A stretch of DNA of 64,000 bases, from the NCBI RefSeq assembly GCF_014280435.1, contig NZ_CP060388.1:3547501-3611500 (forward strand). Reading direction: 5' to 3'. The notes below the pieces were generated by a model. The model had not been told where the DNA came from, did no database searches, and was given only the letters and a program-made list of their open reading frames with translations. This document shows positions 11,623 to 31,953 of this stretch, one piece after another. Positions within the stretch are counted from its first letter, which is position 1; each line of letters starts with the position of its first letter. Position numbers and translations under genes: made by a program. This DNA comes from Sphingobium sp. KCTC 72723. GTDB lineage: Bacteria > Pseudomonadota > Alphaproteobacteria > Sphingomonadales > Sphingomonadaceae.

Positions 11623-12768
11623 ATGGTGCGTGTCCCAAAGCCTTCCTACTTGCCCGACCCCTTTCTGCTCTGCCTGATCGCCACGGTAGCGGGCGCGTCT
11701 TTCGTGCCCGTGCGCGGCGCAGCCATTCCCTGGGTTGAAGCAGCGACGGACACTGCGATTGCGTTGCTTTTTTTCCTGCATGGGGCGAAATTGTCGCGCG
11801 CGGCGGTTCTTCAGGGTGCAGGCAACTGGCGACTGCATCTATATGTTCTGGCTTCGACCTATATTCTCTTTCCCGTAATCGGCCTGGGCCTGGTTGCCTT
11901 GCTGCGCGACTTTGGGGATGGCCTGCTGCTCTCTGGCCTGCTCTATCTTACTTTGCTGCCGTCGACGGTCCAATCATCGATCGCATTTACGGCAATGGCT
12001 GGCGGCAATGTCGCAGCGGCAGTGTGCAGCGCTTCCCTTTCCAACATCATCGGCATCATTCTCACCCCGGTTCTGGTCGGCCTGTTCATGGCGGTGGACG
12101 GCGCAAGCAGCGGCTTTTCCTGGCAGTCGGTTCAGGCGATCGCGCTGCAACTGCTCGTCCCCTTCGTGGCGGGGCATTTGCTGCGGCCGTGGATCGGCGC
12201 GTTCATTGATCGCCACAAGGGCGTGCTGATGCCGGTCGATCGCGGGTCTATCCTGCTGGTCGTCTATTGCGCATTCAGCGCTGCCGTGGTGGGCGGTATC
12301 TGGTCGCAAGTGGGCATTGCCGACCTTTTGCTCCTGCTGCTGCTCAGCCTGGTGATGCTGGTCATCGTGATGGGCGCGAATATGGGGCTTGCGCGGCTGG
12401 TCGGCCTGCCCCGCGCGGATAGGATCGTCCTGCTTTTCTGCGGGTCCAAAAAGAGCCTGGTATCGGGCGTGCCGATGGCAGGCGCGCTGTTCCCGGCGGC
12501 ACAGGTCGGCATGATCATCCTGCCGCTCATGATCTTCCATCAGATTCAGCTGTTCCTCTGCGCCGCGCTGGCGGGCCGGTTTGCGCGACAAGGCGCAACC
12601 GCGCCAATGCCAGAACGTCCGCTCATCCCACGCACCCTAGCCGAAATTGAAAGCACAGCAGACAGGCTGGGCCTGACCATAGCTGACCCATGTTTGGCGG
12701 GCGTCGTCGCCAATCTTGCCCTGCTGGACCGTCATGCCGACACGCTGTTCGCGACGGACAAGTCATGA
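11623..12768 (+). CDS. SLC10A7/YfeH-type bile-acid:Na+ symporter-family transporter with C-terminal AtzG/HpxX-like extension
   Basis: 381 residues. Residues 1 to about 325 are a ten-helix membrane protein with family features such as FFLHGAKLS, LPSTVQSSIAFT and FCGSKKSLVSGVP. The family is usually about 330 residues. The extra 53 residues (from Met329) read like a DUF4089/AtzG small subunit: LGLTI, then GVVANL, ALL and an Ala-Leu-rich end. The next gene is the AtzE/HpxY amidase that normally pairs with such a subunit, and it overlaps this stop by four bases. GAGGGG precedes the ATG. First gene of the purine operon; it may import a purine breakdown product. An internal start at Met329 could also make a free small subunit. 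Confidence 0.8.
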   Translation: MVRVPKPSYLPDPFLLCLIATVAGASFVPVRGAAIPWVEAATDTAIALLFFLHGAKLSRAAVLQGAGNWRLHLYVLASTYILFPVIGLGLVALLRDFGDGLLLSGLLYLTLLPSTVQSSIAFTAMAGGNVAAAVCSASLSNIIGIILTPVLVGLFMAVDGASSGFSWQSVQAIALQLLVPFVAGHLLRPWIGAFIDRHKGVLMPVDRGSILLVVYCAFSAAVVGGIWSQVGIADLLLLLLLSLVMLVIVMGANMGLARLVGLPRADRIVLLFCGSKKSLVSGVPMAGALFPAAQVGMIILPLMIFHQIQLFLCAALAGRFARQGATAPMPERPLIPRTLAEIESTADRLGLTIADPCLAGVVANLALLDRHADTLFATDKS

Positions 12769-14102
12769 GGCAGGCGGTTGACATCGCCGCCGCTGTCCGG
12801 TCGGGACAGATCAGCGCCATGACCGTGGTAGAGGACTGCCTCACCCGATTGACTCACGAAAGCGGGCCACTAGTCGCGATAACCCGCATCCTGGCCGATC
12901 GCGCCCGGACAGAGGCAGCAGCCGTCGATGCCGCCATCGCTGCGGGGCAGGATCCGGGGCCGTTGGCGGGCGTCCCCTATGGCGTCAAGGATCTGTTCGA
13001 CATAGGTGGCCTGCCGACCACGGCGGGGTCGGGCCTCTATGCCGATGCGCCGCCCGCCCAAGCAGATGCGCAGGCCATCGGCCGTCTGCAATCGGCTGGC
13101 GCCATCCTCGTCGCGACGCTGAACATGGATGAGTTCGCCTATGGCTTTGCCACCATCAATGCCCGGCACGGCACGACGCGCAATCCCCATGACCTTGAAC
13201 GGCTGGCCGGTGGTTCATCGGGCGGATCGGCGGCAGTGGTCGCCGCCGGACTGCTGCCTTTCTCGCTCGGCTCCGACACCAATGGATCAATCCGCGTCCC
13301 CGCCAGCCTGACCGGCATTTACGGCCTCAAACCCACGCATGGCGCGCTGCCGATGGACGGGGTTTTTCCCTTTGCCCACAGCTTCGACGACATCGGCCCC
13401 TTCGCCCTGTCGGTGGCGGACATGGCGTGCCTCTGGCAGGTGCTGGGCGGGACCGACACAGCGGCAGGCGATCCGATCCGCGTCGCGCGGCTGGGCGGGC
13501 GTTTTCGTGAAAATGTCGATCCCGACCAGATCGCAGCGATGGATGCCATTGTCCCTGATGCGCCCATCCTGGACCTGCCGGACATCGCCCGCGCGCGATC
13601 GGCCGCTTTCCTGATCACCGCAGCGGAGGGTGGCGCGCTGCATAGCGAAGCCCTTGGTCGCGATGCGATGGCGTTCGACCCGGCCACCCGCGATCGCCTG
13701 CTGGCCGGTGCGCTGCTGCCCGACAGCCTGTATCAGGCGGCACAGGCGTTTCGCGCGCAGTATAAGCAGCGCATCGTAGAAATCATGGCAACCCACGACG
13801 TGCTGCTTGCGCCCGCGACCCCCTGCGTCGCGCCGCTGATAGCGGACCCGCGCATCCTGATCGACGGCGCGCTCTCGCCCGCCCGCGCGGACTTGGGCAT
13901 TCACAGCCAGCCGATCAGCTTTACCGGGCTGCCGTCCTTGTCCGTGCCATTGCGCCGTCCGGGCCGCTTGCCGCTGGGGCTGCAACTGATAGGCAGGCCG
14001 GGGGGCGAGGCGACATTGTTCCGTTTCGCCAGGATGCTGGAAGACAAGGGGCTGACCGGCGTAACATCGCCGACGGGCGCATATCAGGGGGACGCATCAT
14101 GA
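12765..14102 (+). CDS. hpxY: AtzE/HpxY-family amidase
   Basis: 445 residues of the amidase-signature family. The catalytic Lys is in PYGVKDLFD and the Ser-cisSer pair in GGSSGGSAAVVAAG, followed by GSDTNGSIRVPAS. AtzE works with AtzG on 1-carboxybiuret, and HpxY is its counterpart in Klebsiella-type purine clusters. Here it probably hydrolyses a carbamoyl or carboxy-urea intermediate downstream of allantoate, such as oxalurate (inference). No separate small subunit gene exists, but the preceding transporter ends in an AtzG-like segment. The start overlaps that stop by four bases; an upstream in-frame start lies deep in the transporter gene and is rejected. Confidence 0.85.
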   Translation: MRQAVDIAAAVRSGQISAMTVVEDCLTRLTHESGPLVAITRILADRARTEAAAVDAAIAAGQDPGPLAGVPYGVKDLFDIGGLPTTAGSGLYADAPPAQADAQAIGRLQSAGAILVATLNMDEFAYGFATINARHGTTRNPHDLERLAGGSSGGSAAVVAAGLLPFSLGSDTNGSIRVPASLTGIYGLKPTHGALPMDGVFPFAHSFDDIGPFALSVADMACLWQVLGGTDTAAGDPIRVARLGGRFRENVDPDQIAAMDAIVPDAPILDLPDIARARSAAFLITAAEGGALHSEALGRDAMAFDPATRDRLLAGALLPDSLYQAAQAFRAQYKQRIVEIMATHDVLLAPATPCVAPLIADPRILIDGALSPARADLGIHSQPISFTGLPSLSVPLRRPGRLPLGLQLIGRPGGEATLFRFARMLEDKGLTGVTSPTGAYQGDAS

Positions 14103-15460
14103 CGGACGTGAAAACGGACGGGGCGATACAGCCAGGGACGGGGCGGCTCGAACGCTATTTCAGCCTGTCGGAACGGGGCACTTCGGCGCGGACCGAGATT
14201 TTGGCGGGGTTCACGACCTTTCTGACCATGGCCTATATCGTGCTGGTCAATCCCGCGATCCTGGGTCAGGCGGGGATGCCGATCGCGGCTGTGGCAGCCG
14301 CGACCTGTTTCGCTGCTGCCTTTGGCTCCATACTGATGGGGCTGGTCGCCAATACGCCGCTGGCGCTGGCACCGGGGATGGGCCTGAACGCCTATTTCAG
14401 CTTCACCGTCGTGCAGCAAATGGGCGTCCCCTGGCCGATCGCGCTGGGATGCGTCTTCATTTCCGGCATCGCCTTCCTGATCCTGACGCTGACCGGCGTG
14501 CGCCAGATGATCGTGGCGGCCATCCCGATGCATTTGTTCGCGGCGGTGGCGGGCGGCATCGGCCTGTTCATCGGCTTCATCGGCCTGAAGAATGCAGGGA
14601 TCGTCGTCGCCAATCCTGCCACCTTCGTGGCGCTGGGCGACTTGAAGGCACCCGGCGCTGCGCTTGCCCTGTTCGGGCTGCTGGTCATCGGCGTGCTGAG
14701 CGTCTGGAACGTGCGCGGCGCGATGCTGATCGGCATCGTCGCGACGACGCTGGTGGGATGGCTGTTCGGCCAGGTGGTCGTCAGCCCCGAACCCTACAGC
14801 CTCGCCGCCTTGACCGGGACAGCGTTCAAGCTGGACCTTTCGGGGGTGTTCGGCCTCACCGGCAGCCATGGCCTCGGCCTGCTCGAAATCCTGTTCGTCT
14901 TTCTGTTCGTCGACCTGTTCGACAATATCGGCACGCTGGTCGCCGTCACCAAACGCGCAGGGCTGATGGACAAGGCGGGGCGCATCCCCGGCCTCAACCG
15001 CATCCTGATGGCAGATGCCGCCGCTACGGTCGTCGGGTCGGTGGCAGGCACCAGCACCGTCACATCCTATGTCGAAAGCGCTGCGGGCGTACAGGCGGGC
15101 GGGCGCACCGGGCTGACGGCGGTCGTCACCGGCATCCTGTTCCTGATCACCATGTTCGTCGCCCCCTATGCGCAGATCGTCCCGCTGGCGGCGACCGCAC
15201 CTGCACTCATCATCGTGGGCGGCCTGATGCTGTTGCCCCTGACAGAGGTGGAGTGGGAAGATCCGCTCTCGGCCATCCCAGCCTTCCTGACCGTGGCGAT
15301 GATCCCGCTGACCTTCTCGATCGCCAATGGTCTGGCGTTCGGCATTACCGCCCACGCCATCTTGAAATTGCTGCGCGGCACCGCGACCAAGGCCGACTGG
15401 TTCCTGTTCCTGCTCGCCGCCATGTTCGTAGTCCGCTTCATCTGGATGGGTGCGGCCTGA
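14099..15460 (+). CDS. NCS2 purine permease, AzgA/PbuG type
   Basis: 453 residues with about 12-14 membrane segments. The signature FTTFLTMAYIVLVNP near the start and LAPGMGLNAYF are hallmarks of the AzgA branch, which imports hypoxanthine, guanine or adenine with protons. A later VGTSTVTSYVESAAGV-like segment (here AGTSTVTSYVESAAGVQAGG) matches the same branch. ATGA overlap on the 5' side and one-base overlap on the 3' side put it inside the operon. It supplies purine bases to the cytoplasmic deaminases and xanthine dehydrogenase encoded downstream. Confidence 0.92.
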   Translation: MTDVKTDGAIQPGTGRLERYFSLSERGTSARTEILAGFTTFLTMAYIVLVNPAILGQAGMPIAAVAAATCFAAAFGSILMGLVANTPLALAPGMGLNAYFSFTVVQQMGVPWPIALGCVFISGIAFLILTLTGVRQMIVAAIPMHLFAAVAGGIGLFIGFIGLKNAGIVVANPATFVALGDLKAPGAALALFGLLVIGVLSVWNVRGAMLIGIVATTLVGWLFGQVVVSPEPYSLAALTGTAFKLDLSGVFGLTGSHGLGLLEILFVFLFVDLFDNIGTLVAVTKRAGLMDKAGRIPGLNRILMADAAATVVGSVAGTSTVTSYVESAAGVQAGGRTGLTAVVTGILFLITMFVAPYAQIVPLAATAPALIIVGGLMLLPLTEVEWEDPLSAIPAFLTVAMIPLTFSIANGLAFGITAHAILKLLRGTATKADWFLFLLAAMFVVRFIWMGAA

Positions 15461-16374
15461 TGCGCGCGCTCTGCCTAGCCTTGTTTGCGCTGCTGCTGCC
15501 CGTTTCGGCGCAGGCCAAGCCGCTCGACCGGACGCCGCGCACCGTGGTCATGACCGCCTTTGCGCCCGAATGGGATGCGCTGGCCCATTCCATTGCCCGG
15601 CCCAAAACGCACCATGTCAACGGCCTGACCATGCTGACCGGCACCATGGCGGGGAAGCCGGTGCTGCTGATGCAGAGCGGCGTCAGCATGGTCAACGCGG
15701 CGATGAACACGCAGTTGGTGCTGGATCGGTTCACCGTGAAGCGGATCGTCTTTTCCGGCATCGCTGGCGGGGTCGATCCCGCGCTGTCGATCGGCGATGT
15801 CATCGTGCCGGAGGATTGGGCGCAATATCTGGAGGTGTCCTTTGCGCGCCAGACGCCGGCAGGCTGGGTCGTGCCCGAACCCGTGGACGCGGACGCGCCG
15901 CCCCATTTCGGCATGATGTTCCCGCGCGGCGTCCGGCTGGGCAATGCGGCGCAAGCCCCGCGCCGCCATTACCGGCAGGCGGTCGATCCCATGTTGCTGG
16001 CGCTCGCCCGCAAAGTCGCCGTCGGCGTGAAGCTGCGCCGCTGCGTCGATGGACAGGCGACCGCCGCAAACTGCCTGGTCCATGACCCCAAATTCGTCGT
16101 CGGCGGCACGGGGGTCAGCGCCGGTGTCTATGCCGACAACGCCGAATTTCGCGATTATCTGGCCACCGCCTGGAAAGCGCGCGTGCTGGACATGGAAAGC
16201 GCGGCGGTGGTGCAGGTGGCCTATGCCAACAACGTGCCCGTCATCGTGTTCCGCAGCCTGTCGGACCTGGCCGGGGGTGACGCTGGCGCGAACCAGATGA
16301 ACACATTCATGGCGCTGGCATCGGTCAACAGCGCCGACGTCGTGCGCGCCTTCGTCGCCGCGCTGCCGGATTAG
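15460..16374 (+). CDS. exported nucleoside phosphorylase/MTAN-superfamily nucleosidase
   Basis: 304 residues starting with a clear signal peptide (cleaved after SAQA, about residue 19). The mature part shows the MTA/SAH nucleosidase pattern: SGIAGGVDPALSIGD and MESAAVVQVAY, with RSLSD supplying the base-binding Asp. Normal MTAN is cytosolic and about 230 residues; this one is exported and has an insert between the two motifs. It probably splits purine nucleosides in the periplasm so the adjacent permease can import the base. The start overlaps the permease stop (TGATG). Confidence 0.82.
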   Translation: MRALCLALFALLLPVSAQAKPLDRTPRTVVMTAFAPEWDALAHSIARPKTHHVNGLTMLTGTMAGKPVLLMQSGVSMVNAAMNTQLVLDRFTVKRIVFSGIAGGVDPALSIGDVIVPEDWAQYLEVSFARQTPAGWVVPEPVDADAPPHFGMMFPRGVRLGNAAQAPRRHYRQAVDPMLLALARKVAVGVKLRRCVDGQATAANCLVHDPKFVVGGTGVSAGVYADNAEFRDYLATAWKARVLDMESAAVVQVAYANNVPVIVFRSLSDLAGGDAGANQMNTFMALASVNSADVVRAFVAALPD

Positions 16375-16375
16375 G

Positions 16376-17962
16376 ATGATGACGCTTTCCACCATCAGCG
16401 GCACGAACGGCATGGTCACCGCCCCCCATTGGCTGGCCGCGCAGGCGGGGTGCGACGTGCTGAAAGACGGCGGCAATGCGGTCGAAGCCGCCGTCGCCGT
16501 CGCTGCCACGCTGGCCGTCGTCTATCCGCACATGACCGGGATCGGCGGCGACAGTTTCTGGCTGGTGGCGCAACCGGACGGGACGATCGACAGTGTGCAT
16601 GGCTGTGGTGGCGCGGCAGCGAAGGCCGATCTTGCGCTCTATGCGGGCCTTGCCACGGTGCCGACGCGCGGACCGCTCGCCGCCAATACCGTGGCCGGGA
16701 CATTGTCGGGCTGGGCCGCAATGCTGGAAAGCGGCGGCGGCGCGCTACCCTTGTCCCGCCTGTTGCGCGACTCGATCCACCATGCAGAAAATGGCGTGGC
16801 GGTGACTCGTGGCGGCGCGGCAATTGCGGCGGCGAAGGGTGGCGAATTGCGCGGCCAGCCCGGCGCCTATGCCGCCACTTTCGAGCCGGAGGGTCGCCCG
16901 CTACGCGAAGGCGACATGCTGCACCAACCTGCACTGGCCGCCACGTTGCAGGCCATCGCAACAGACGGGATCGCCGATTTCTACAGCGGCGCGCTAGCTG
17001 ATCTGGTGGCGGCAGACCTTGCCGCGCTGGGCAGTCCGGTCGGCCGCGACGATCTGATCGCGCATCGGGCGACCCGGCCCCAGCCGCTGACCACGCGGAT
17101 CGCGGGCATCGACCTTTACAACAGCGCCCCACCGACGCAAGGCTTCGCCTCGCTCATGATCCTCGCTGTGTTCGACCGGCTGCGCGCGACGCAGGCAGAC
17201 GGTTTCGACCATGTCCATGGTCTGGTCGAAGCGACCAAGCAAGCGTTTCTGTTGCGCGATACGCATGTCGGCGACCCGGCTTTCCACGATTTCGATTATC
17301 AGGGGCTGCTGGACGATCCGGCGGCGCTGGACGCAATCGCCGCCACAATCGACCCCACGCGCGCCCTGCCCTGGCCCCGCCCCTCGGCACAGGGCGACAC
17401 TTGCTGGTTCGCAACCGCCGACAAGGATGGACGCATGGTCAGCGCCATCCAATCCACCTATTTCGAATTCGGGTCGGGCCTGGTCCTGCCGCAGACCGGC
17501 ATCACCTGGCAAAATAGAGGCAGCAGTTTCCGTCTGGCAGCGGACGGCTGGAACGCGCTGAAGCCCGGTCGCAAGCCCTTCCACACGCTCAACCCTGCGC
17601 TGGCCCGCTTCGACGATGGGCGCATCATGGCCTATGGCACGATGGGCGGCGAGGGCCAGCCGCAGACCCAAGCCGCTCTGTTCAGCCGTTACGCGCGCTT
17701 CGGCGTCGACCTCCAGCAGGCGATCAGCGCGCCCCGATGGCTGCTGGGGCGAACCTGGGGCGAAGATAGCACGACGCTCAAGCTGGAGGACGGTTTCGAC
17801 GAAGCGCTCTATGGCGAACTTGCAGCGGCGGGGCATGATGTCGAGCGTGTCGGGCCGCTGACCGCAACGATGGGCCATGCCGGTGCCATCGTCCGCCACG
17901 CCGATGGCCGTCTGGACGGCGCGACCGACTCGCGCAGCGACGGGCAGGTGGCGACATGGTGA
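16376..17962 (+). CDS. hpxW: gamma-glutamyltransferase-family amidohydrolase, HpxW-like (oxamate amidohydrolase)
   Basis: 528 residues of the Ntn-hydrolase GGT family. The autoprocessing nucleophile is Thr342 in GDTCWF, and substrate loops such as GTMGGEGQPQ are present. The long N-terminal half forms the large subunit after cleavage. No signal peptide is seen, unlike glutathione-degrading GGTs. In Klebsiella the HpxW member of purine clusters hydrolyses oxamate to oxalate and ammonia. Position next to allantoate amidohydrolase and an HpxY amidase supports that role rather than glutathione turnover. It overlaps the next gene by seven bases. Confidence 0.85.
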   Translation: MMTLSTISGTNGMVTAPHWLAAQAGCDVLKDGGNAVEAAVAVAATLAVVYPHMTGIGGDSFWLVAQPDGTIDSVHGCGGAAAKADLALYAGLATVPTRGPLAANTVAGTLSGWAAMLESGGGALPLSRLLRDSIHHAENGVAVTRGGAAIAAAKGGELRGQPGAYAATFEPEGRPLREGDMLHQPALAATLQAIATDGIADFYSGALADLVAADLAALGSPVGRDDLIAHRATRPQPLTTRIAGIDLYNSAPPTQGFASLMILAVFDRLRATQADGFDHVHGLVEATKQAFLLRDTHVGDPAFHDFDYQGLLDDPAALDAIAATIDPTRALPWPRPSAQGDTCWFATADKDGRMVSAIQSTYFEFGSGLVLPQTGITWQNRGSSFRLAADGWNALKPGRKPFHTLNPALARFDDGRIMAYGTMGGEGQPQTQAALFSRYARFGVDLQQAISAPRWLLGRTWGEDSTTLKLEDGFDEALYGELAAAGHDVERVGPLTATMGHAGAIVRHADGRLDGATDSRSDGQVATW

Positions 17963-19212
17963 GCGCGCTCCCACCCGGTGGCGCAAGAGCGGTCGCGCGC
18001 TGCGACGCGCTGGGCGTCGCGCCCTATAGCGACATGGAAGGCGGGCTGTATCGCGGCTATCTGACACCGGCCTATGATGCCGCGCAGGACGCGCTGGCCA
18101 CTTGGATGGCGGACGCGGGCATGACGGTAAAGCAGGATGCCGCCGCCAATCTGGTCGGGCGCTACGACGGCACCGTCTCCGGCGCGCCCGTGCTGATGAT
18201 CGGCAGTCACCTCGACAGCGTGCGCGATGGTGGCCGCTATGACGGTCCGTTGGGGATCATGCTGGGAGTCGAACTGGTCGATGCGTTCCACCGCGCGGGG
18301 GAACGCCTGCCTTTCCCGATCGAGGTGATTGCCTTTGGCGACGAGGAAGGATCGCGCTTCCCCGCCGCCATGTTCACCAGCCGCGCCGTGGCCGGAACGC
18401 TTAATCCTGCCATGCTCGACGTAGCGGATGCGCAGGGCGTGACGCTGGCACACGCCTACAGCCCACGCCATGGTGACATCGCCCGCTATGGCGAGGCGGC
18501 ACGGCCGCGTGGTTCGGTGCTGGCCTATCTCGAAGCGCATATCGAACAAGGCCCGGCGCTGGAAGCGGACGGACTGGCGCTGGCCACCGTGACGGGCATC
18601 GCCGCGCAACTGCGCCTGTCCGTGACCGTCATCGGCATGGCGGGTCATGCCGGAACGACGTCAATGCCCTTGCGGCGCGACGCTCTGGCAGGCGCGGCGG
18701 AAATGATGCTGGCGATCGAGACGATCGCACGCGACGATGCGTCCGACCTTGTGGCGACCGTTGGCAAGATCATGGCAGCGCCCGGTGCCGCCAATGTCAT
18801 ACCGGGCCATGTGACTTTCACCATTGATATACGGTCCAGCGATGGCGGGCGGCGCGACCGGGCAGCGGAAATCATTATCGACCGGATTGCGGACATTGCC
18901 GATGCGCGCGCGCTCGATTTCAGCATAGAGCGCATCCACGACTTGCCCGCCAGCCCGTGCGATCCGCGCCTCATGAAACTGATGGATGCGGCGATCGCGG
19001 CGGAAGGGCTGCCCCCCCGTCGGCTCGTATCGGGCGCGGGTCATGATGCCATGGTGATGGCCGCTTTATGCCCGACGGCCATGTTGTTCATCCGCTGCCG
19101 CGGTGGGATAAGCCATAATCCGGCCGAGCATGTGGAGCCGGACGATGCCGACGCCGCGCTGCGGGTGATGGTGCAATTTGTAAGGATGCTGGCCAATGAC
19201 CTTGTCCCCTGA
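17956..19212 (+). CDS. hpxK: allantoate amidohydrolase, M20 family
   Basis: 418 residues. The zinc ligands of the allantoate/carbamoyl-amino-acid branch of M20 enzymes are visible: HLDSV, DGGRYDGPLG, the Glu pair in DEEGSRF, EAHIEQGP and HNPAEHV. The dimerisation domain lies in the middle, with AGHAGTTSMPLRRDA. Expected reaction: allantoate to ureidoglycine plus CO2 and ammonia. A ureidoglycine aminotransferase gene follows directly with 17 bases of overlap, matching the order of the pathway. The ATG overlaps the HpxW stop. Confidence 0.92.
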   Translation: MVSALPPGGARAVARCDALGVAPYSDMEGGLYRGYLTPAYDAAQDALATWMADAGMTVKQDAAANLVGRYDGTVSGAPVLMIGSHLDSVRDGGRYDGPLGIMLGVELVDAFHRAGERLPFPIEVIAFGDEEGSRFPAAMFTSRAVAGTLNPAMLDVADAQGVTLAHAYSPRHGDIARYGEAARPRGSVLAYLEAHIEQGPALEADGLALATVTGIAAQLRLSVTVIGMAGHAGTTSMPLRRDALAGAAEMMLAIETIARDDASDLVATVGKIMAAPGAANVIPGHVTFTIDIRSSDGGRRDRAAEIIIDRIADIADARALDFSIERIHDLPASPCDPRLMKLMDAAIAAEGLPPRRLVSGAGHDAMVMAALCPTAMLFIRCRGGISHNPAEHVEPDDADAALRVMVQFVRMLANDLVP

Positions 19213-20431
19213 TCTGTTCGGCGAGATCGACCCGCCGCAACGGCTGCTGATGGGTCCGGGGCCAGTCAACGCCCATCCCCGCGTGCTGCGCGCCATGTCG
19301 GCCGATCTGCTGGGCCAGTTCGATCCCGAAATGACCACCTATATGAATCAGGTCATGGCCCTCTACCGCCCGATCTTCGGGACGCAGAACCAGCAGACGA
19401 TGCTGGTCGATGGTACGGCGCGGGCGGGAATAGAAGCCGCTTTGGTATCGCTGGTGGCACCGGGCGACACTGTGCTGGTCATCAATTTCGGCCGCTTCGG
19501 CCTGTTGCTGGGCGAAATCCTGACCCGTATCGGCGCGGTGATCGCAACGGTGGATGCGCCATGGGGCGAAATCGTGCCGATGGACGCCATCGCCGCTGCC
19601 ATCGAACGCACCGCTCCCAAAGTCGTCGCCTGCGTTCATGGCGACACGTCCACTACCATGGCCCAGCCGCTCGATGGCCTGGGCGACCTGTGCCATGCAG
19701 CCGGCGCGCTATGCTATGTGGATGCGACCGCAACCATTGGCGGCATGGAAATCGCCGCCGATCGTTGGGGCATAGATGTCGTCACCGGCGGCTTGCAGAA
19801 ATGTCTGGGCGGTCCCTCCGGCTCCGCGCCGATCACCATCTCCGACTGCGCAGCCGAAGCCATCTTCGTCCGCCGCCATACCGAAGCAGGCATCCGCAGC
19901 GCCGAAAGCATCGACGGCGCGGGGCCACGGATCGGTTCCAACTATTTCGACCTCGCCATGATCATGGATTACTGGTCGGACAAGCGCTTGAACCACCATA
20001 CCGAAGCCACGTCGATGCTTTATGCCGCGCGGGAATGTGCGCGCGTGATGCTGGGGGAAGGCCTGGCGGCGCGCTATGCCCGGCACGCCGCAGCGGGTCG
20101 GGCGATGAGTGCGGGCCTGCGCGCCATGGGCCTCACGCTCTTTGGCGACGACGCGCATCGCATGACCAATGTGACCGGCGTTTTCATCCCCCAGGGAGTA
20201 GACAATGACCGGGTCCGCGCCGCCATGCGCGACCATTTCGAGATTGAGATCGGCACTGCCTTTGGGCCTTTGCAGGGGCGTATCTGGCGCATCGGCGCAA
20301 TGGGCTATAATGCAATGAAGCATAAGGTGCTGATCACGTTGGGCGCGTTGGAAGCCTGCCTGATGCGTGAGGGGTTTTCCCTACCGCCGGGCGCGGCAGT
20401 CGGCGCGGCGCTGGAAGCATGGGACGCATGA
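19196..20431 (+). CDS. hpxJ: class-V aminotransferase, ureidoglycine-glyoxylate aminotransferase
   Basis: 411 residues of the alanine-glyoxylate/PucG branch. The PLP lysine is K202 in GGLQKCLGG, preceded by the cofactor Asp in VDATATIGG. N-terminal LLMGPGPVNAHPRVLRA is diagnostic of this branch. In purine clusters it transfers the amino group of ureidoglycine to glyoxylate, giving oxalurate and glycine. Immediate coupling to allantoate amidohydrolase upstream and allantoinase downstream supports this. HpxW and HpxY encoded upstream would handle the oxalurate branch. Confidence 0.9.
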   Translation: MTLSPDLFGEIDPPQRLLMGPGPVNAHPRVLRAMSADLLGQFDPEMTTYMNQVMALYRPIFGTQNQQTMLVDGTARAGIEAALVSLVAPGDTVLVINFGRFGLLLGEILTRIGAVIATVDAPWGEIVPMDAIAAAIERTAPKVVACVHGDTSTTMAQPLDGLGDLCHAAGALCYVDATATIGGMEIAADRWGIDVVTGGLQKCLGGPSGSAPITISDCAAEAIFVRRHTEAGIRSAESIDGAGPRIGSNYFDLAMIMDYWSDKRLNHHTEATSMLYAARECARVMLGEGLAARYARHAAAGRAMSAGLRAMGLTLFGDDAHRMTNVTGVFIPQGVDNDRVRAAMRDHFEIEIGTAFGPLQGRIWRIGAMGYNAMKHKVLITLGALEACLMREGFSLPPGAAVGAALEAWDA

Positions 20432-21303
20432 CGCTGCCCCGCGACCTCATCGGCTACGGCTCTACCCCGCCCGACCCGCGCTGGCCCGGCGGCGCGCGCA
20501 TAGCCGTCCAGTTCGTCGTCAATTATGAGGAAGGCGCGGAAAACAACCTCCTCAACGGCGACAAGGGGTCCGAGGCCTTTCTGTCGGAAATGGTCGGTGC
20601 TGCCAGCCACCCGGCGCGCGCCATGGCAATGGAAAGCCTCTATGAATATGGCAGCCGCGCAGGCTTCTGGCGGCTGCACCGCATTTTCACCGAACGCAAC
20701 CTGCCCGTGACGGTATTTGGCGTCGCCAATGCGATGGCGATGAACCCGGCGGCGGTGGGAGCGATGCTGGCGTCGGACTGGGAAATCGCCAGCCACGGCC
20801 TGAAATGGATCGACTATCAACATGTGTCCGAATATCTCGAGCGCGCGCACATATTGGAGGCGATTGCCCTCCACACCCGACTGACCGGCACCCGGCCGCT
20901 GGGCTGGTATCAGGGCCGCACCTCGCCCAACACGGCGCGGCTGGTGCGCGAAGAAGGGGGCTTTGTTTATGATGCCGACAGCTATGCCGACGACCTGCCC
21001 TATTATGCAGAAGGACAGTTGATCGTCCCCTACACGCTCGACGCCAACGACATGAAGTTCGTCGCGCTCAACGGCTTTACCGAAGGCGATCAGTTCTTCC
21101 GCTATCTGCGCGATACGTTCGATCAGTTGCGCAGCGAGGGCGGCCGCATGATGTCGGTCGGCCTGCATGGCCGCATCGCCGGGCGACCCGCACGCGCCGC
21201 CGCGCTCGCCCGTTTCCTCGACCATGTCATCGCTTGTCGAGACGCCTGGGTCGCACGCCGCATCGACATTGCCCACCACTGGATGGAGGTTCACCCCGCA
21301 TGA
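20428..21303 (+). CDS. puuE: allantoinase PuuE, polysaccharide-deacetylase fold
   Basis: 291 residues. IGYGSTPPDPRWPGGARIAV and the following NYEEGAENN are the PuuE signature, and a NodB-like barrel follows with EIASHGLKW and a late SVGLHGRIAGRP. PuuE is the metal-independent type of allantoinase (allantoin to allantoate), unrelated to AllB. An ATG nine bases earlier (20419) is possible, but the chosen one gives the four-base ATGA overlap repeated throughout this operon. It sits between the aminotransferase and HpxZ genes. Confidence 0.93.
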   Translation: MTLPRDLIGYGSTPPDPRWPGGARIAVQFVVNYEEGAENNLLNGDKGSEAFLSEMVGAASHPARAMAMESLYEYGSRAGFWRLHRIFTERNLPVTVFGVANAMAMNPAAVGAMLASDWEIASHGLKWIDYQHVSEYLERAHILEAIALHTRLTGTRPLGWYQGRTSPNTARLVREEGGFVYDADSYADDLPYYAEGQLIVPYTLDANDMKFVALNGFTEGDQFFRYLRDTFDQLRSEGGRMMSVGLHGRIAGRPARAAALARFLDHVIACRDAWVARRIDIAHHWMEVHPA

Positions 21304-21680
21304 CAATCGACGATCCGATCCTGCTCGCCGAAATCACCGCCGCCTTTGCCGAATATGAGCGCGCACTGATGACGGACGATGTGCCGGCAATGGATATGCT
21401 GTTCCACGATGCGCCGACCACCAACCGATACGGTGTGGGCGAAGTATTGTACGGCATCGAGGAGATCCGGGATTTCCGCAAAGGCCGTGGCGGATCGCCC
21501 CAGCGCAAGCTGGGTAAGGTTGCGATCACCGTCTATGGCGACAGCTTCGCCACCGCCGACGCAGAATTTTTCCGCGAAAACAGCGACCGGCGCGGTCGCC
21601 AGACGCAAAGCTGGGTCAAGTTTGCCGATGGCTGGAAGGTCGTGTCCGCCCATGTCAGCCTGGAGGGGAACACGCATTGA
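21300..21680 (+). CDS. hpxZ: HpxZ/AtzH-like protein (DUF3225, SnoaL-like fold)
   Basis: 126 residues with the pattern of the family: an N-terminal helix with AFAEYERALMTDDVPAMDML, then FHDAPTTNRYGVGE and a C-terminal WKVVSAHVS strand. HpxZ accompanies HpxW/X/Y in purine clusters, and AtzH, its relative, hydrolyses 1,3-dicarboxyurea in cyanurate degradation. A similar small carboxy-urea hydrolase role is plausible here. ATGA overlap with PuuE; the next gene starts at a TTG overlapping this stop. Confidence 0.85.
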   Translation: MTIDDPILLAEITAAFAEYERALMTDDVPAMDMLFHDAPTTNRYGVGEVLYGIEEIRDFRKGRGGSPQRKLGKVAITVYGDSFATADAEFFRENSDRRGRQTQSWVKFADGWKVVSAHVSLEGNTH

Positions 21681-22117
21681 GTGCGCTGTTCGAACATAGC
21701 CCCTGGGTGGAGGCGCGCGCCGATGCACGACCTTCGTCGGGCGATCGTCATGTGGACCTGATGGCGGTCGTCCATGACGCGACGCCGGACGAGCAATTGG
21801 CGCTTATCCGCGCCCATCCCGAACTGGCGGGCAAGGCCGCGATCGACCGGACCCTGACCGACGCATCCGCCGCCGAACAGGCGTCAGCGGGCCTCGATCG
21901 TCTGACGCCGCAGGAGTATGAACGCTTCCATGCACTCAACGCCACCTATCGGGCACGGTTCGACTTCCCCTTCATCATCTGCGTGCGGCTGACCGACAAG
22001 GCGGGTATATTGGCGGCCATGGAACAGCGTCTGGACCATGATCGGGACGAAGAGGTCGCAACCGCAATCGCCCAGATCGGCGAGATCGTCCGGCTGCGTC
22101 TGAAGGATGCCGCATGA
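21677..22117 (+). CDS. uraD: OHCU decarboxylase UraD
   Basis: 146 residues with FEHSPWVEARAD, the catalytic HPELAGKA, SAAEQASAGLD and FPFIICVR, all typical of 2-oxo-4-hydroxy-4-carboxy-5-ureidoimidazoline decarboxylase, which makes S-allantoin. It is about 20 residues shorter at the N terminus than usual UraD, beginning nearly at the FEHSPW motif. The only available start is TTG in a TTGA overlap with HpxZ. The missing part normally forms a lead-in helix, so activity is likely retained but unproven. Confidence 0.9.
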   Translation: MSALFEHSPWVEARADARPSSGDRHVDLMAVVHDATPDEQLALIRAHPELAGKAAIDRTLTDASAAEQASAGLDRLTPQEYERFHALNATYRARFDFPFIICVRLTDKAGILAAMEQRLDHDRDEEVATAIAQIGEIVRLRLKDAA

Positions 22118-23544
22118 GCGCGCCCATCGGCCTGCCCGCGCTGGAGGCGGAACTTGCGCGGCAACTCGTCCTGATCGGTCATGGCGGCACAGACTGGACG
22201 CGACCCCGCGCCCACGATCAGGGCCATGTCCATGACGTCGTGATCGTCGGCGGCGGGCAGAGCGGCCTTGCCGCAGCGTTCGGCCTGCTGCGCGAACGGG
22301 TGTCCAACATCCTGGTCATCGACGAAAATCCCGCTGGACAAGAGGGACCATGGGACACCTATGCGCGGATGATAACCCTGCGCACGCCCAAGGAACTCAA
22401 TCCCATCGACTTCGGCATCCCTGCCCTCACCTACCGCGCCTGGTGGGAAGCACAGCATGGCGCGGCAGGTTGGGAGGCGGTCGGCAAAATCGCGCGCGGC
22501 GACTGGATGGCCTATTTGCGCTGGTATCGGCGCGTATTGGCGCTACCAGTGCGCAACGACACCAGCCTTACCCTCATCGAGCCGTTGGGGGACGGCCTTC
22601 ACCGCCTGCATCTCGACGGCCAGCCGTCCTTGCTGGCGCGCAAGGTCGTGCTGGCGACCGGCATACAGGGTGGCGGCGAATGGCACACGCCCGCGATGAT
22701 CCGCGATGCGTTGCCGCGCAGCCTGTATGCCCACACCAGCGAGCCGATCGACTATGCGGCGCTCAAGGGCAAGCGGATCGGCATATTGGGCGGCGGCGCA
22801 TCGGCGTTCGACAATGCCAATGCAGCGCTGACCATCGGGGTCGCGGCCGCCCACGTCTTCATTCGCCGCCCCGTCCTGCCCCGCATCAACCCGATCCGCT
22901 TCATGGAACAGGTCGGCTTTACCGGCCGCTATCCCGCGCTGGACGATGCGGAAAAATATGCGGTGATGGCGTCTTTTCTGGGCCATAACCAGCCGCCGAC
23001 CAATGACACGTTCGATCGGGCGGCGGCCTGGCCGGGATTCTTGTTGCATCTGGGCGCGCCATGGCTGGCGGTCGAACAAACGGACGGCGCGGTGCGCGTC
23101 ACGACGCCGCAGGGATGCCATGATTTCGATTTTCTGGTCCTGTCCACCGGCCTTGTCAGCGACCCCGGCCTCCGCCCGGAACTGCTCCTTGTCGCAGGCA
23201 GCATCGCGCGCTGGGCCGATCGCTTCACGCCGCCGTCCGGCAGCGCCAATGCGCTGATCGACGCGCATCCTTATCTGGGCGACGGCTTCGAACTGCTGCC
23301 CCGGACCGACGATGGCGTGGCGGCGTTGCATGGCCTGTTCGCGTTCAACTATTCCGCGCTCATCAGCCTGGGCCTCTCCGCCTCCGCTTTGTCGGGGCTA
23401 CGAACCGCGCTGCCGCGACTGGTGAAAGGCGTGACCGACCAGCTTTTTCTGGACGATCGCAACGCCCTGATCGCCGACCTTCTGGCCTATGATGACGTGG
23501 AATTTATCGGGCAATGGCCAAAACCCTCAGAGGAAGCCGCATGA
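22114..23544 (+). CDS. two-Rossmann FAD/NAD(P) oxidoreductase, candidate urate hydroxylase
   Basis: 476 residues. FAD motif GGGQSG at residues 46-51, a second dinucleotide motif GGGASA from residue 226, and ATG-type linkers VVLATGIQ and LVLSTGLV. This is the layout of class-B flavoprotein monooxygenases, though the full FMO fingerprint is not visible. It is translationally coupled on both sides between UraD and UraH, and this operon holds every step from adenine to oxalate except urate to 5-hydroxyisourate. HpxO, the known FAD urate hydroxylase, is a one-Rossmann class-A enzyme of about 384 residues, and this protein is not of that type. Assignment as urate hydroxylase is inference from context. 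Confidence 0.7.
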   Translation: MSAPIGLPALEAELARQLVLIGHGGTDWTRPRAHDQGHVHDVVIVGGGQSGLAAAFGLLRERVSNILVIDENPAGQEGPWDTYARMITLRTPKELNPIDFGIPALTYRAWWEAQHGAAGWEAVGKIARGDWMAYLRWYRRVLALPVRNDTSLTLIEPLGDGLHRLHLDGQPSLLARKVVLATGIQGGGEWHTPAMIRDALPRSLYAHTSEPIDYAALKGKRIGILGGGASAFDNANAALTIGVAAAHVFIRRPVLPRINPIRFMEQVGFTGRYPALDDAEKYAVMASFLGHNQPPTNDTFDRAAAWPGFLLHLGAPWLAVEQTDGAVRVTTPQGCHDFDFLVLSTGLVSDPGLRPELLLVAGSIARWADRFTPPSGSANALIDAHPYLGDGFELLPRTDDGVAALHGLFAFNYSALISLGLSASALSGLRTALPRLVKGVTDQLFLDDRNALIADLLAYDDVEFIGQWPKPSEEAA

Positions 23545-23873
23545 TGGCCAGCCTGTCTACTCATGTCCTCGATACCAGCCATGGCTGCCCCGCCGCCGGA
23601 GTCACACTGCGCCTGCTCGATGGCAACGGAACCATCCTGTTCGCCGCTATCACCGATTCAGATGGCCGCTGCCCCGGCCTGCCCGCCGTGACGCCGGGCC
23701 GCTACCGGCTGGAATTTGCGGTCGCTGCCTATTTTGCCGGGCGCGGCGTCGATTTACCGGATCCGCCATTTCTCGACACCGTCCTGCTCGACTTCGGCAT
23801 CGCCGATGCGGGTCATTATCACGTCCCCCTGCTCGTCTCGCCCTATGGCTATTCGACCTATCGGGGCAGTTGA
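23541..23873 (+). CDS. uraH: 5-hydroxyisourate hydrolase UraH
   Basis: 110 residues of the transthyretin-like family. N-terminal LSTHVLDTSHGCPA and the C-terminal tetrapeptide YRGS are the diagnostic catalytic motifs. It converts 5-hydroxyisourate to OHCU, the substrate of UraD. No signal peptide, so it is cytosolic. The start overlaps the flavoprotein stop (ATGA), followed by a second Met; an earlier in-frame start lies within the flavoprotein gene. Confidence 0.95.
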   Translation: MMASLSTHVLDTSHGCPAAGVTLRLLDGNGTILFAAITDSDGRCPGLPAVTPGRYRLEFAVAAYFAGRGVDLPDPPFLDTVLLDFGIADAGHYHVPLLVSPYGYSTYRGS

Positions 23874-23874
23874 G

Positions 23875-25302
23875 ATGAGCGTGCGCTTCCTGCTGGACGG
23901 CGAAGTGGTCGAAATCGCCGATGTCGATCCCACCGCCACGCTCCTCGATCATCTGCGCTATACGATGCGGCGCACCGGCACCAAGGAAGGCTGCGCCGAG
24001 GGCGATTGCGGCGCCTGCACTGTGCTGGTCGGCGATCTGGATGGCGACGCCATAGCCTGGCGCGCGGTCAATGCCTGCATCCTGTTCCTCCCCATGCTGC
24101 ATGGCCGCGCGCTACTGACGGTCGAAAGCCTTGCGCCCGTCGGCGGCCTCAACCCGCTTCAGGCTTGCATGGCGGCCAATGGCAGTTCGCAATGCGGCTT
24201 TTGCACGCCCGGTTTCGTCATGTCGCTTTATGGTCGATGCGTCGGCGCAAGCGGCCATGACCTGCCAGTCGCCGACATAGTGGCGGGCAATCTGTGCCGC
24301 TGTACCGGCTATGGCCCGATATTGGCGGCGGCGGATGCTACCGGCCCGCTGGAACGCGACGACAGCGCGACCATCGCGGCGCTCAAAGCGCTGAAGGAAA
24401 CGCCCGCTGCCTTCGGCCAGCATGGCGACCGCCGCTGGTTCGCGCCGCGCAGTTGCGCCGCGCTCGCCGACCTGCTCGCGCAATATCCAGACGCGCGCAT
24501 GGTTGCGGGCGCTACCGATGTCGGCCTGTGGGTGACCAAGGGGCTGCGCAGCATCGACACGCTGATCTTCCTGGGCGACATCGCGCAATTACAGGGGATC
24601 GAGGAAAGTCCCGCTGGCGTCCGACTGGGCGCGGGGGTGCGTTATGCCGATGCCCATGCAGCCTTTGTGCGCCTCCATCCCGATCTTGGCGAACTGACCC
24701 GGCGGATCGGCGGATTGCAGGTCCGCAACGCAGCGACGGTCGGCGGCAATATCGCCAATGGATCGCCAATCGGGGACGGCCCACCCGCCTTCATCGCCCT
24801 GGGCGCAGAATTGACCTTGCGCAGCCGGGATGGTCGGCGAACGATGCCGTTGGAGGATTATTTCCTCGACTATGGCAAGCAGGACCGCCGTCCGTGGGAA
24901 TTTGTCGAAAGCCTGTGGATTCCCCGGCCCGGCCCCGATTCCGTCATTCATATCGCCAAATTGTCGCGCCGTTTCGACAGCGACATTTCGGCGGTTTGCG
25001 GCGCTTTCCATCTGACCGTGCGGGATCGGCATATCGCCACCGCGCGCATCGCCTTTGGCGGCATGGCCGCCACGCCGCGCCGCGCGCCGCTATGCGAAGC
25101 CGCGCTGATCGGCCAGCCATTCACGCTGGCCACAATGGAGCAGGCCGCCCAAGCCCTGCGCGCCGACTATGCCCCGCTGTCCGATGTGCGCGGGTCCGCT
25201 GCTTACCGGCTCGACGTTGCCGCCAACCTGCTGCCGCGCCTGTGGCACCGGGCGCAGGGCCAGGCCGTGTCGGTGCTGGATCTGGACGCTGCCCATGGCT
25301 GA
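23875..25302 (+). CDS. xdhA: xanthine dehydrogenase small subunit (2Fe-2S and FAD)
   Basis: 475 residues. Residues 1-85 form a plant-ferredoxin domain with C40, C45 and C48. A helical [2Fe-2S] domain follows with CGFCTPGF and CRCTGYGP. From about 180 comes the FAD domain (AGATDVGLWVTKG; NAATVGGNIANGSPIGD) and a C-terminal FAD-associated domain. It passes electrons from the molybdenum subunit, encoded next with an eight-base overlap, to NAD+. The start is one base after the UraH stop. Confidence 0.95.
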   Translation: MSVRFLLDGEVVEIADVDPTATLLDHLRYTMRRTGTKEGCAEGDCGACTVLVGDLDGDAIAWRAVNACILFLPMLHGRALLTVESLAPVGGLNPLQACMAANGSSQCGFCTPGFVMSLYGRCVGASGHDLPVADIVAGNLCRCTGYGPILAAADATGPLERDDSATIAALKALKETPAAFGQHGDRRWFAPRSCAALADLLAQYPDARMVAGATDVGLWVTKGLRSIDTLIFLGDIAQLQGIEESPAGVRLGAGVRYADAHAAFVRLHPDLGELTRRIGGLQVRNAATVGGNIANGSPIGDGPPAFIALGAELTLRSRDGRRTMPLEDYFLDYGKQDRRPWEFVESLWIPRPGPDSVIHIAKLSRRFDSDISAVCGAFHLTVRDRHIATARIAFGGMAATPRRAPLCEAALIGQPFTLATMEQAAQALRADYAPLSDVRGSAAYRLDVAANLLPRLWHRAQGQAVSVLDLDAAHG

Positions 25303-27604
25303 TCGCGATTCCGCCTGGAGCGTGCTGCCAAAGCCATCGCACCCGCACGACAGCGCGCATCTGCATGTCACCGGCGCGGCCCGCTATGCCGATGATGGGC
25401 CGGAACCAGCCGACATGCTCCACCTCGCCTTTGGCCAGAGCGCCCATGCCCATGCCCGCATCCTGTCCATGGACCTGTCCGCCGTCTGCGCTGCCGAAGG
25501 CGTCGTGCATGTATTCACCGCCGCCGACATAAGCGGCGCGAACGACGTCAGTCCGGTGGCGGGCGATGACCGGCTACTTGCCGATGGCGAAGTGATCTGC
25601 GTCGGGCAGGCCATTTTTCTGGTCGCCGCCACCAGCCAGCGCGCCGCGCGAAAGGCCGCACGGCTTGGCAAGATCGACTATGAACCGCTGCCCGCTTGCG
25701 TAACGATCGAGGCGGCACAGGCGGCCAACTCGCTCATCGAACCAACCCAGCGCATGGCACGCGGCGACGCCGACGCCGCGCTGACGACTGCGCCGCATCG
25801 CCTGACCGGCAGTTTCGACATGGGCGGACAAGATCATTTCTATCTGGAGGGGCAGGTCGCTGTCGCGACCCCTGGCGAGGATGGCCAGATCCATCTGCTC
25901 AGTTCCACCCAGCATCCCAGCGAAATCCAGCATCTGGTCGCCCATATGCTCCATCGCAGTTCCGCCGACGTGACGGTGGAAGTACGGCGCATGGGCGGTG
26001 CCTTTGGCGGCAAGGAAACGCAGGCCGCCCTGTTCGCCGCCGCCGCCGCACTGGTGGCCGACAAGACCGGCCGCCTGGCCAAATTCCGCTGCGACCGTGA
26101 CGATGACATGGTGATGACCGGCAAGCGCCACGCTTTCCGCATTGGCTATGACGTCGGCTTCGACGTTTCGGGCCATGTGCTGGCGCTGCGCCTGCGCCTT
26201 GCATCCCGCTGTGGTGCTACGGTCGATCTGTCCCCGGCGATCAACGACCGGGCGATGTTCCACGCCGACAATTGCTACTGGCTGCCTGACGTCGAAATCC
26301 TGTCGGAGCGGTTGAAAACCAATACCGTGTCCGACACTGCCTTTCGAGGCTTTGGCGGGCCGCAGGGGATGCTGGCGATAGAGCGGGTGATGGACGATGT
26401 CGCCGCGCATCTGGGTCATGATCCGCTGGATGTGCGGTGCGCCAATCTCTACGGCCCCGGTCGCGATGTCGCCCCCTATGGCATGACCATCGCCGACAAT
26501 ATCGCGCCGCAACTCATCGCCCGGCTGCGCGCCGACGCTCGGTACGACGCCCGCAAGGCCGCGATCGCCGCCTTCAACGCTGCCAGCCCGATCATCAAGA
26601 AGGGGATAGCGCTTACCCCGGTCAAGTTCGGGATCAGCTTCACCACCACCCACCTCAATCAGGCTGGCGCACTGGTGTTGGTCTATGCCGACGGCTCGAT
26701 TCAGATCAACCATGGCGGCACGGAAATGGGCCAGGGTCTGTATATCAAGGTGGCGCAGGTCGTCGCAGACGTGTTCGCCGTGCCGATCGACCGGGTGCGG
26801 ATCACCGCCACCCGCACCGATAAAGTGCCTAATACGTCCGCCACTGCCGCTTCGTCGGGCGCGGATCTGAACGGCATGGCCGCCTATAATGCCGCGATCA
26901 CGATCCGCGACCGGCTCACCGGCTTCCTCGCTCGCACCTTTGGTTGCGCCGACAGCGACGTCCATTTCACACCCGACGGCATCCGCGCGGGGTCCGAATG
27001 CCTGACCTTCGCCCAGCTTTGCCGCAAGGCGCATATCGGCCGCATATCGCTCGCCGCCACCGGCTATTACGCCACCCCCGGCATTGCCTATGATCGCGCC
27101 GCGCATCAGGGTCGCCCCTTCTATTATTTCGCTTATGGCGCGGCGGTGGCGGAAGTCGCGATCGACACGCTGACCGGCGAACATAAGGTGCTGGCCGTCG
27201 ACATCCTTCATGATGTGGGGCGCTCGCTCAATCCAGTGATCGACATCGGCCAGATCGAAGGCGGCTTCATTCAGGGGCAGGGTTGGCTGACGACCGAGGA
27301 ACTGATCTTCGACGGTCAGGGCCGATTGCTTACCCATTCGCCCGCGACCTACAAGATTCCGACCGCATCGGACCGCCCCGCCCATATGACGATCAACCTG
27401 TGGGACGGCGAGAATGTGGAACCGACGATCAACCGATCGAAGGCCGTCGGCGAACCCCCCTTCATGCTCGCTATCTCGGTATTTTCAGCCCTGACCCGCG
27501 CCGTCGCCGCCGCCGCTCCCGATCGCCGCGCGTTGCCGCGCCTCGACGCGCCCGCCACGCCCGAACGCATCCTGCGCGCGGTGACGGAGCATCGCGCCCG
27601 ATGA
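25295..27604 (+). CDS. xdhB: xanthine dehydrogenase molybdopterin-binding subunit
   Basis: 769 residues, normal for XdhB. Visible motifs in order: GQDHFYLEGQVA, RRMGGAFGGKE, AFRGFGGPQG, GTEMGQGLYIK, GGFIQGQGW and KAVGEPP, where Glu720 is the catalytic base acting at molybdenum. It hydroxylates hypoxanthine to xanthine and xanthine to urate. Eight-base overlap with xdhA and four-base overlap with xdhC. Confidence 0.96.
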   Translation: MADRDSAWSVLPKPSHPHDSAHLHVTGAARYADDGPEPADMLHLAFGQSAHAHARILSMDLSAVCAAEGVVHVFTAADISGANDVSPVAGDDRLLADGEVICVGQAIFLVAATSQRAARKAARLGKIDYEPLPACVTIEAAQAANSLIEPTQRMARGDADAALTTAPHRLTGSFDMGGQDHFYLEGQVAVATPGEDGQIHLLSSTQHPSEIQHLVAHMLHRSSADVTVEVRRMGGAFGGKETQAALFAAAAALVADKTGRLAKFRCDRDDDMVMTGKRHAFRIGYDVGFDVSGHVLALRLRLASRCGATVDLSPAINDRAMFHADNCYWLPDVEILSERLKTNTVSDTAFRGFGGPQGMLAIERVMDDVAAHLGHDPLDVRCANLYGPGRDVAPYGMTIADNIAPQLIARLRADARYDARKAAIAAFNAASPIIKKGIALTPVKFGISFTTTHLNQAGALVLVYADGSIQINHGGTEMGQGLYIKVAQVVADVFAVPIDRVRITATRTDKVPNTSATAASSGADLNGMAAYNAAITIRDRLTGFLARTFGCADSDVHFTPDGIRAGSECLTFAQLCRKAHIGRISLAATGYYATPGIAYDRAAHQGRPFYYFAYGAAVAEVAIDTLTGEHKVLAVDILHDVGRSLNPVIDIGQIEGGFIQGQGWLTTEELIFDGQGRLLTHSPATYKIPTASDRPAHMTINLWDGENVEPTINRSKAVGEPPFMLAISVFSALTRAVAAAAPDRRALPRLDAPATPERILRAVTEHRAR

Positions 27605-28517
27605 CCGACTGGCTGGACTGGTTGCGCGCCGTCGCAGGCAAGGAAGCGTGCGCGCTGATCAGCATCGTGGCGAGCGAAGGCTCCGCGCCGCGCGGCGCAG
27701 GTACGCGGATGCTCGTTACCGCCGACACGCTCCATGGCACAATTGGCGGCGGACAGCTTGAATATCGCGCGGTGGAGCAGGCCCGCGCCATTCTGGACCA
27801 TCCACCGGGACATTGGCGGGTGCAGGATTATCCGCTGGGACCGTTGCTGGGACAATGTTGTGGCGGGCGGGTGCGGCTGCTGATCGAGCATATCGCCCCG
27901 ACTGCGATGGACTGGCTGGCGGACGCAGCCGACGAGCGCATCCTCGTTTCGACCTTCATGCCCGACCGGGTGGAACGCCACGTCAACGACCATGCCATCC
28001 CATCCAGCCTGTCGGCGCGCGGCGACCGCCCCCGCACGGGTGACAGCGTGGTGGAGAGCATCGGCCAGCATCGCAGACCGATCTATCTGTTCGGGGCCGG
28101 CCATGTGGGGCAGGCGATTGCCCGCCACGCCGCCAACCTGCCCTTCCGCCTCGCCTGGTTCGACACGCGCCCGGTGTTTGAAACGATCGAAGGCGTCGCC
28201 GTGGTGCCGGAGGCCGCAATCGAGCAATGCGTTGCGGACGCACCCGATGACGCCGCCATTCTCATCCTGACCCACGACCATGCACTGGATTATCGTCTGA
28301 CCCTTGCCGCCGTCCGTCGCCCGCCCTGCGCCTTTACCGGCCTCATAGGTTCCGCCACCAAGGGCGCGCGCTTTCATGCCCGGCTGACGCGCGACGGCAT
28401 CGACGCACAGGCGCGCGCACACCTGACTTCGCCGATCGGCGTGCCGGGCGTCTCGGGCAAGGAACCCGATGTCATCGCCATCGCCGTGCTGGCCCAATTG
28501 CTCCAATTGAGGGCGGT

Positions 28518-28521
<4 letters not shown>
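27601..28521 (+). CDS. xdhC: XdhC molybdenum-cofactor insertion chaperone
   Basis: 306 residues. N-terminal SIVASEGSAPRGAGTRMLV and GGGQLEYRA, the conserved GQCCGG cysteines, and a C-terminal Rossmann part with FGAGHVGQAIA. XdhC binds Moco, presents it for sulfuration and inserts it into XdhB. It is not part of the final enzyme. ATGA overlaps on both sides. Confidence 0.95.

Positions 28522-31953
<3,432 letters not shown>

Follow-up and report, generated by a model that had tools for sequence, protein, structure and literature searches.

A flavoprotein gene overlapped by uraD and uraH

A 64,000-nucleotide stretch of the Sphingobium sp. KCTC 72723 genome (contig NZ_CP060388.1, positions 3,547,501 to 3,611,500; here called the window) carries, on the + strand from 12690 to 31953, a run of purine salvage and degradation genes that includes an open reading frame (ORF) for a flavoprotein of 476 amino acids (aa). 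From its gene context and distribution, we infer that the product of this ORF is in all likelihood HpyO, a monooxygenase that would depend on FAD and use NAD(P)H to convert urate and O2 to 5-hydroxyisourate.

22114..23544, + strand: hpyO-type FAD/NAD(P)H urate hydroxylase (predicted); 476-aa open frame, Pfam, alignment, structure model

Both ends of the ORF overlap the adjacent genes by four bases, at the uraD stop and the uraH start, respectively. This arrangement, noted in a preliminary description of the window, is borne out by reading of the sequence and by curated models. In the alignment, an FAD motif (GGGQSG) is found near residue 46 and a second dinucleotide motif (GGGAS) near residue 226; the Pfam matches are NAD_binding_9, Pyr_redox_3, DAO, Lys_Orn_oxgnase, and Pyr_redox_2. 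The structure model (pLDDT 90.5, pTM 0.90) has a predicted fold of the class B N-hydroxylase type (PvdA, KtzI, and SidA), with putative FAD and NAD(P) dinucleotide folds combined in a single chain in a PvdA/SidA-like arrangement, so that the class-B-like character proposed earlier holds at the level of the model. Identity to these flavin N-hydroxylases, whose substrates are amines and not purines, is 15 to 18%.

The protein had also been set apart from HpxO, and the domain scans agree. HpxO of Klebsiella (model NF033623; PDB entries 3rp6-3rp8, which we take to be this enzyme) is a class A FAD urate hydroxylase that reportedly carries out the same reaction as the one proposed here, with a PF01494-type one-Rossmann fold and about 380 aa. 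In contrast, the ORF has no match to FAD_binding_3 (PF01494) at E <= 0.001, and NF033623, for which HpxO proteins are expected above 500 bits, is not among its NCBIfam matches at that threshold. The Pfam scan of the ORF likewise gave no match to uricase (PF01014) or PuuD (PF06181), proteins that act at the same pathway step and are unrelated to the flavoprotein.

The purine gene run

The other genes of the run are listed in order below. A PNP/MTA-nucleosidase-like gene lies between the permease and the gamma-glutamyltranspeptidase family gene, the ORF lies between uraD and uraH, and a nucleoside hydrolase gene follows the adenosine deaminase family gene.

12690..14102, + strand: AtzE-type amidase (HpxY-like, oxalurate branch); NF006631 548.6 bits, cut-off 461
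14099..15460, + strand: xanthine/uracil-type permease; PF00860 143.2 bits
16376..17962, + strand: gamma-glutamyltranspeptidase family, probably HpxW-like oxamate amidohydrolase (role inferred); PF01019; TIGR00066 314.7 bits, below the cut-off of 357.85
17956..19212, + strand: allantoate amidohydrolase; NF006775 589.2 bits, cut-off 479
19196..20431, + strand: class V aminotransferase, probably ureidoglycine-glyoxylate type (role inferred); PF00266; no NCBIfam equivalog over its cut-off
20419..21303, + strand: puuE, allantoinase; TIGR03212 496.5 bits, cut-off 424.6
21300..21680, + strand: hpxZ, oxalurate catabolism protein (AtzH-like); PF11533; NF033625 149.3 bits, cut-off 135
21677..22117, + strand: uraD, OHCU decarboxylase, TTG start; PF09349; TIGR03164 174.4 bits, cut-off 96.25
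23541..23873, + strand: uraH, 5-hydroxyisourate hydrolase; PF00576; TIGR02962 108 bits, cut-off 87.45
23875..25302, + strand: xdhA, xanthine dehydrogenase (XDH) small subunit; TIGR02963 559.7 bits, cut-off 467 (longer ORF scanned)
25295..27604, + strand: xdhB, molybdopterin-binding subunit; TIGR02965 1194.5 bits, cut-off 849.5 (longer ORF scanned)
27601..28521, + strand: xdhC, XDH accessory protein; TIGR02964 264.9 bits, cut-off 161.6 (longer ORF scanned)
28518..29828, + strand: guanine deaminase; TIGR02967 518.4 bits, cut-off 375.4
29825..30829, + strand: adenosine deaminase family; NF006850 529.9 bits, cut-off 419 (longer ORF scanned)

The HpxY-like role of the AtzE-type amidase and the HpxW name of the gamma-glutamyltranspeptidase family gene are our assumptions. 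From guanine to the oxalurate branch, every step has a candidate gene, some with presumed roles, except for urate oxidation, and being the sole step with no other candidate, it falls to the 476-aa ORF.

Several features at the margins of the run are recorded here. A 641-aa ORF with a PNP domain (14449-16374) appears to be overextended because the permease gene (14099-15460) fills another frame across its first half; the nucleosidase-like gene probably starts near 15457. An SBF-like transporter ORF (11623-12768), directly followed by the AtzE-type amidase gene, has a weak AtzG-like C-terminal match (22.2 bits, cut-off 24) and may represent the fusion of a transporter with an AtzG/HpxX-like subunit. 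TonB-dependent receptor genes with Plug domains flank the run (6579-9272 and 35239-37710) and may import purines or related compounds.

Search for other urate-oxidizing enzymes in the genome

The assembly (4.43 Mb, two contigs, completeness listed as 100%) was searched for the other enzymes of this step. No match to uricase (PF01014) was found in it and none to PuuD (PF06181) at E <= 0.001, so that a true PuuD was rejected. The best score against the HpxO model was 121.3 bits, far below the cut-off of 500. PRK06847 is the better fit (407.2 bits, cut-off 372) for this candidate, whose gene lies 6 to 7 kb upstream of the window, and an HpxO hidden in another part of the genome was rejected as well. 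A second copy of the 476-aa ORF was not found either at E <= 0.001. Thus, the absence of uricase, PuuD, and HpxO that the preliminary description had read from the window extends, at these thresholds, to the entire assembly, with no match to a genuine urate oxidase elsewhere.

Conservation of the linkage to uraD and uraH

Relatives of the ORF were collected in one scan of the genome_contigs collection; the set that was kept comprises 80 of 103 relatives, and some of these loci end early at contig ends. Among these 80 loci, the closest relatives are from Sphingobium. The fetched flanks most often encode UraH (76/80), UraD (73/80), PuuE and the aminotransferase (71/80 each), followed by HpxZ (68/80) and allantoate amidohydrolase (67/80), and the flavoprotein stop overlaps the uraH start as ATGA in 12 of the 20 loci inspected at this junction.

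Xanthomonas accounts for 20 of the 80 loci, 19 of them at 64 to 66% identity and X. massiliensis at 69%. The alignments span residues 5-474 or 5-476, that is, the full-length protein, and in the tree the ORF and the Xanthomonas genes fall in the same clade of 20 rows (support 100/100). UraD and UraH adjoin in all 20 loci, the order being allantoate amidohydrolase-aminotransferase-PuuE-HpxZ-UraD-gene-UraH (read in the sequence for one locus). A more distant Niveispirillum homolog (49% identity) also lies between uraD and uraH, with PuuE nearby. On plasmid p5 of Priestia filamentosa (Bacillota), a homolog with 59% identity follows a nucleobase symporter gene, uraD, and uraH, and a Tn3 transposase gene is located ~4 kb from this cassette; the combination suggests horizontal spread. 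Altogether, hpyO-type genes accompanied by uraD and uraH were found in sphingomonads, xanthomonads, a Caulobacteraceae metagenome-assembled genome (MAG), and a Bacillota plasmid.

Complementary distribution of hpyO-type genes and PuuD

To compare distributions within the order, 147 genomes were sampled, and PuuD was counted only when a near-full-length PF06181 match was present (E <= 2.8e-119). UraD was identified in 30 genomes, PuuD in 29, and the hpyO-type gene in 2; no uricase was found. Among the 30 UraD genomes, 27 encode full PuuD, 2 carry the hpyO-type gene and no PuuD, and 1 has neither; the last of these (G013) also has the weakest UraD match (108.6 bits). Two genomes (G014 and G082) encode PuuD in the absence of UraD. 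PuuD and the hpyO-type gene never co-occur in the 147 genomes (Fisher p = 0.007), but this test is small, as the carriers number just 2/147. At E <= 0.001, PF06181 matches 85 of the 147 genomes, and the 56 with short matches only were left out of the PuuD count. These short matches fall mostly at profile positions about 145-282, in frames mostly of about 160-230 aa, which would encode a putative membrane protein that is shorter than PuuD and related to a portion of it.

The converse comparison, among carriers of the gene, covered 47 genomes of unstated completeness drawn from the 80 loci (L082 was left out). Uricase was found in none of the 47, and none yielded an HpxO score over the cut-off among the candidates scored (32 per genome at E <= 1e-60, with more present), the best being 242.4 bits in Plesiocystis. 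PuuD was detected at E <= 1e-20 in one carrier, Falsiroseomonas; neither full PuuD nor uricase is present in the other 46, which is the kind of anticorrelation that the preliminary description had named as support for its claim. The Falsiroseomonas homolog (45% identity) lies outside any purine operon, next to genes for an amidohydrolase, an HpaB-type hydroxylase, and an amidase; given this identity and these neighbors, the exception fits a paralog with another role. Nine Xanthomonas genomes (L046, L051, L053, L056, L060, L061, L062, L067, and L068) are part of this set. In each, the gene sits between uraD and uraH; neither uricase nor, at E <= 1e-20, PuuD was found, and HpxO scores stayed below the cut-off. 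The hpyO-type gene thus takes the place of HpxO, uricase, and PuuD both in its own genome and, with the one exception, among its carriers.

Probable function, probable identity with HpyO, and alternatives

Operon position, the linkage with uraD and uraH in three lineages, and the complementarity with PuuD make a function as a urate hydroxylase, nonhomologous to uricase, PuuD, and HpxO, well supported. HpyO would turn urate and O2 into 5-hydroxyisourate; UraH and then UraD, whose genes overlap hpyO on either side, would yield allantoin, to be degraded by PuuE and the remaining enzymes of the run. With respect to the likely chemistry, the second dinucleotide fold would bind the NAD(P)H that reduces FAD, and reaction of reduced FAD with O2 would give a flavin C4a-hydroperoxide that hydroxylates urate at C5.

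The preliminary description had regarded such an enzyme as a new solution for this step. Its functional part stands on the operon, the linkage, and the distribution; its claim of novelty is very probably wrong. A FAD-dependent urate hydroxylase of Xanthomonas campestris, named HpyO, was reportedly described by Michiel et al. in 2012 (Environ Microbiol Rep) as a nonhomologous isofunctional enzyme of HpxO; its gene is said to have restored urate catabolism when it replaced hpxO in Acinetobacter baylyi ADP1, and the enzyme is said to oxidize urate in an NAD(P)H- and O2-dependent manner with Michaelis-Menten kinetics. Because the nine Xanthomonas genomes carry this gene between uraD and uraH and show none of the three other enzymes at the thresholds used, we take this HpyO to be the Xanthomonas ortholog of the 476-aa ORF; X. 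campestris HpyO is presumably hardly any gene other than the flavoprotein gene between uraD and uraH. The loci differ in that the window run continues after uraH with xdhABC and the guanine and adenosine deaminase genes, a part not seen in the Xanthomonas stretches, and in host lineage, the closest relatives of the window gene being from Sphingobium.

Several observations weigh against this assignment. The comparison covers other Xanthomonas species and not the X. campestris HpyO sequence, none of the 80 loci being titled X. campestris; the gene is present in only 2/147 genomes of the order; and homologs from Paenibacillus, Domibacillus, and a Paenibacillaceae MAG (62-64% identity) have no UraD, UraH, or PuuE match in the fetched stretches. 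In addition, "NAD(P)/FAD-dependent oxidoreductase" and "hypothetical protein" are the labels of relatives in the annotated plasmid records examined, and on the ORF all NCBIfam models stay below their cut-offs. As for the Paenibacillus and Domibacillus genomes (L064 and L071), uricase was not found in them. Owing to the generic names and the lack of a model, the gene could pass for undescribed. A urate hydroxylase family distinct from HpyO would fit the NCBIfam result and the PDB sequence search, in which no relative scored above about 41 bits; with the gene so placed in the nine Xanthomonas genomes, and HpyO being said to be FAD-dependent and nonhomologous to HpxO, such a family is very improbable.

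A different alternative holds that the substrate of the flavoprotein is some other purine derivative, such as a xanthine or an 8-oxo-purine, and that urate is oxidized by an unrecognized enzyme elsewhere. The PRK06847-type class A hydroxylase upstream of the window lends itself to this view, as do homologs with 40-46% identity that do not adjoin uraD or uraH, which imply that function may vary across the wider family. However, UraH needs 5-hydroxyisourate, the product of the urate oxidase or hydroxylase step in the established pathway, and the linkage of uraD and uraH with the gene extends across Alphaproteobacteria, Gammaproteobacteria, and a Bacillota plasmid. Together with the complementarity to PuuD, this makes a substrate other than urate highly unlikely, and HpyO remains the preferred assignment.

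Distant homologs and the limits of the family

The homologs with 40-46% identity were rejected as certain urate hydroxylases and are left unassigned. Those at L097, L099, L101, L102, L103, and L104 have no UraD, UraH, or PuuE match at the locus; at L105, an annotated 8-oxoguanine deaminase accompanies a PuuE-like match (43%), and UraD and UraH were not found. Six of these loci (L097, L099, L102, L103, L104, and L105; 41-45% identity) are on plasmids of rhizobia and other bacteria, and some plasmid homologs of the L097-L105 group adjoin amino acid transporters, an XDH-like enzyme, or the annotated 8-oxoguanine deaminase. Conversely, L084 and L085 (46%) fall outside the main clade, and yet UraD and UraH are encoded some kilobases from each of them, at L084 together with allantoicase, so that the border of urate hydroxylase function is unsettled. 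In a residue scan, only I184, S209, R262, and G428 separate purine-linked from other homologs, and because these are partly shared, no specificity motif is claimed.

Placed within a large run of purine genes, the 476-aa ORF is very probably an ordinary but informative HpyO ortholog. Several unrelated enzymes are known as solutions to urate oxidation, and the class-B-like fold predicted for an HpyO-type protein raises a mechanistic question. Tentatively, the HpyO family might form a wide branch of the class-B-fold flavin hydroxylases that has passed from phylum to phylum, in part on plasmids, and in which an amine N-hydroxylase fold is used on a purine carbon and the 40-46% branches hydroxylate other azaheterocycles, a doubtful extension at present. 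An HpyO family model would remove a false gap from pathway reconstructions of such genomes.
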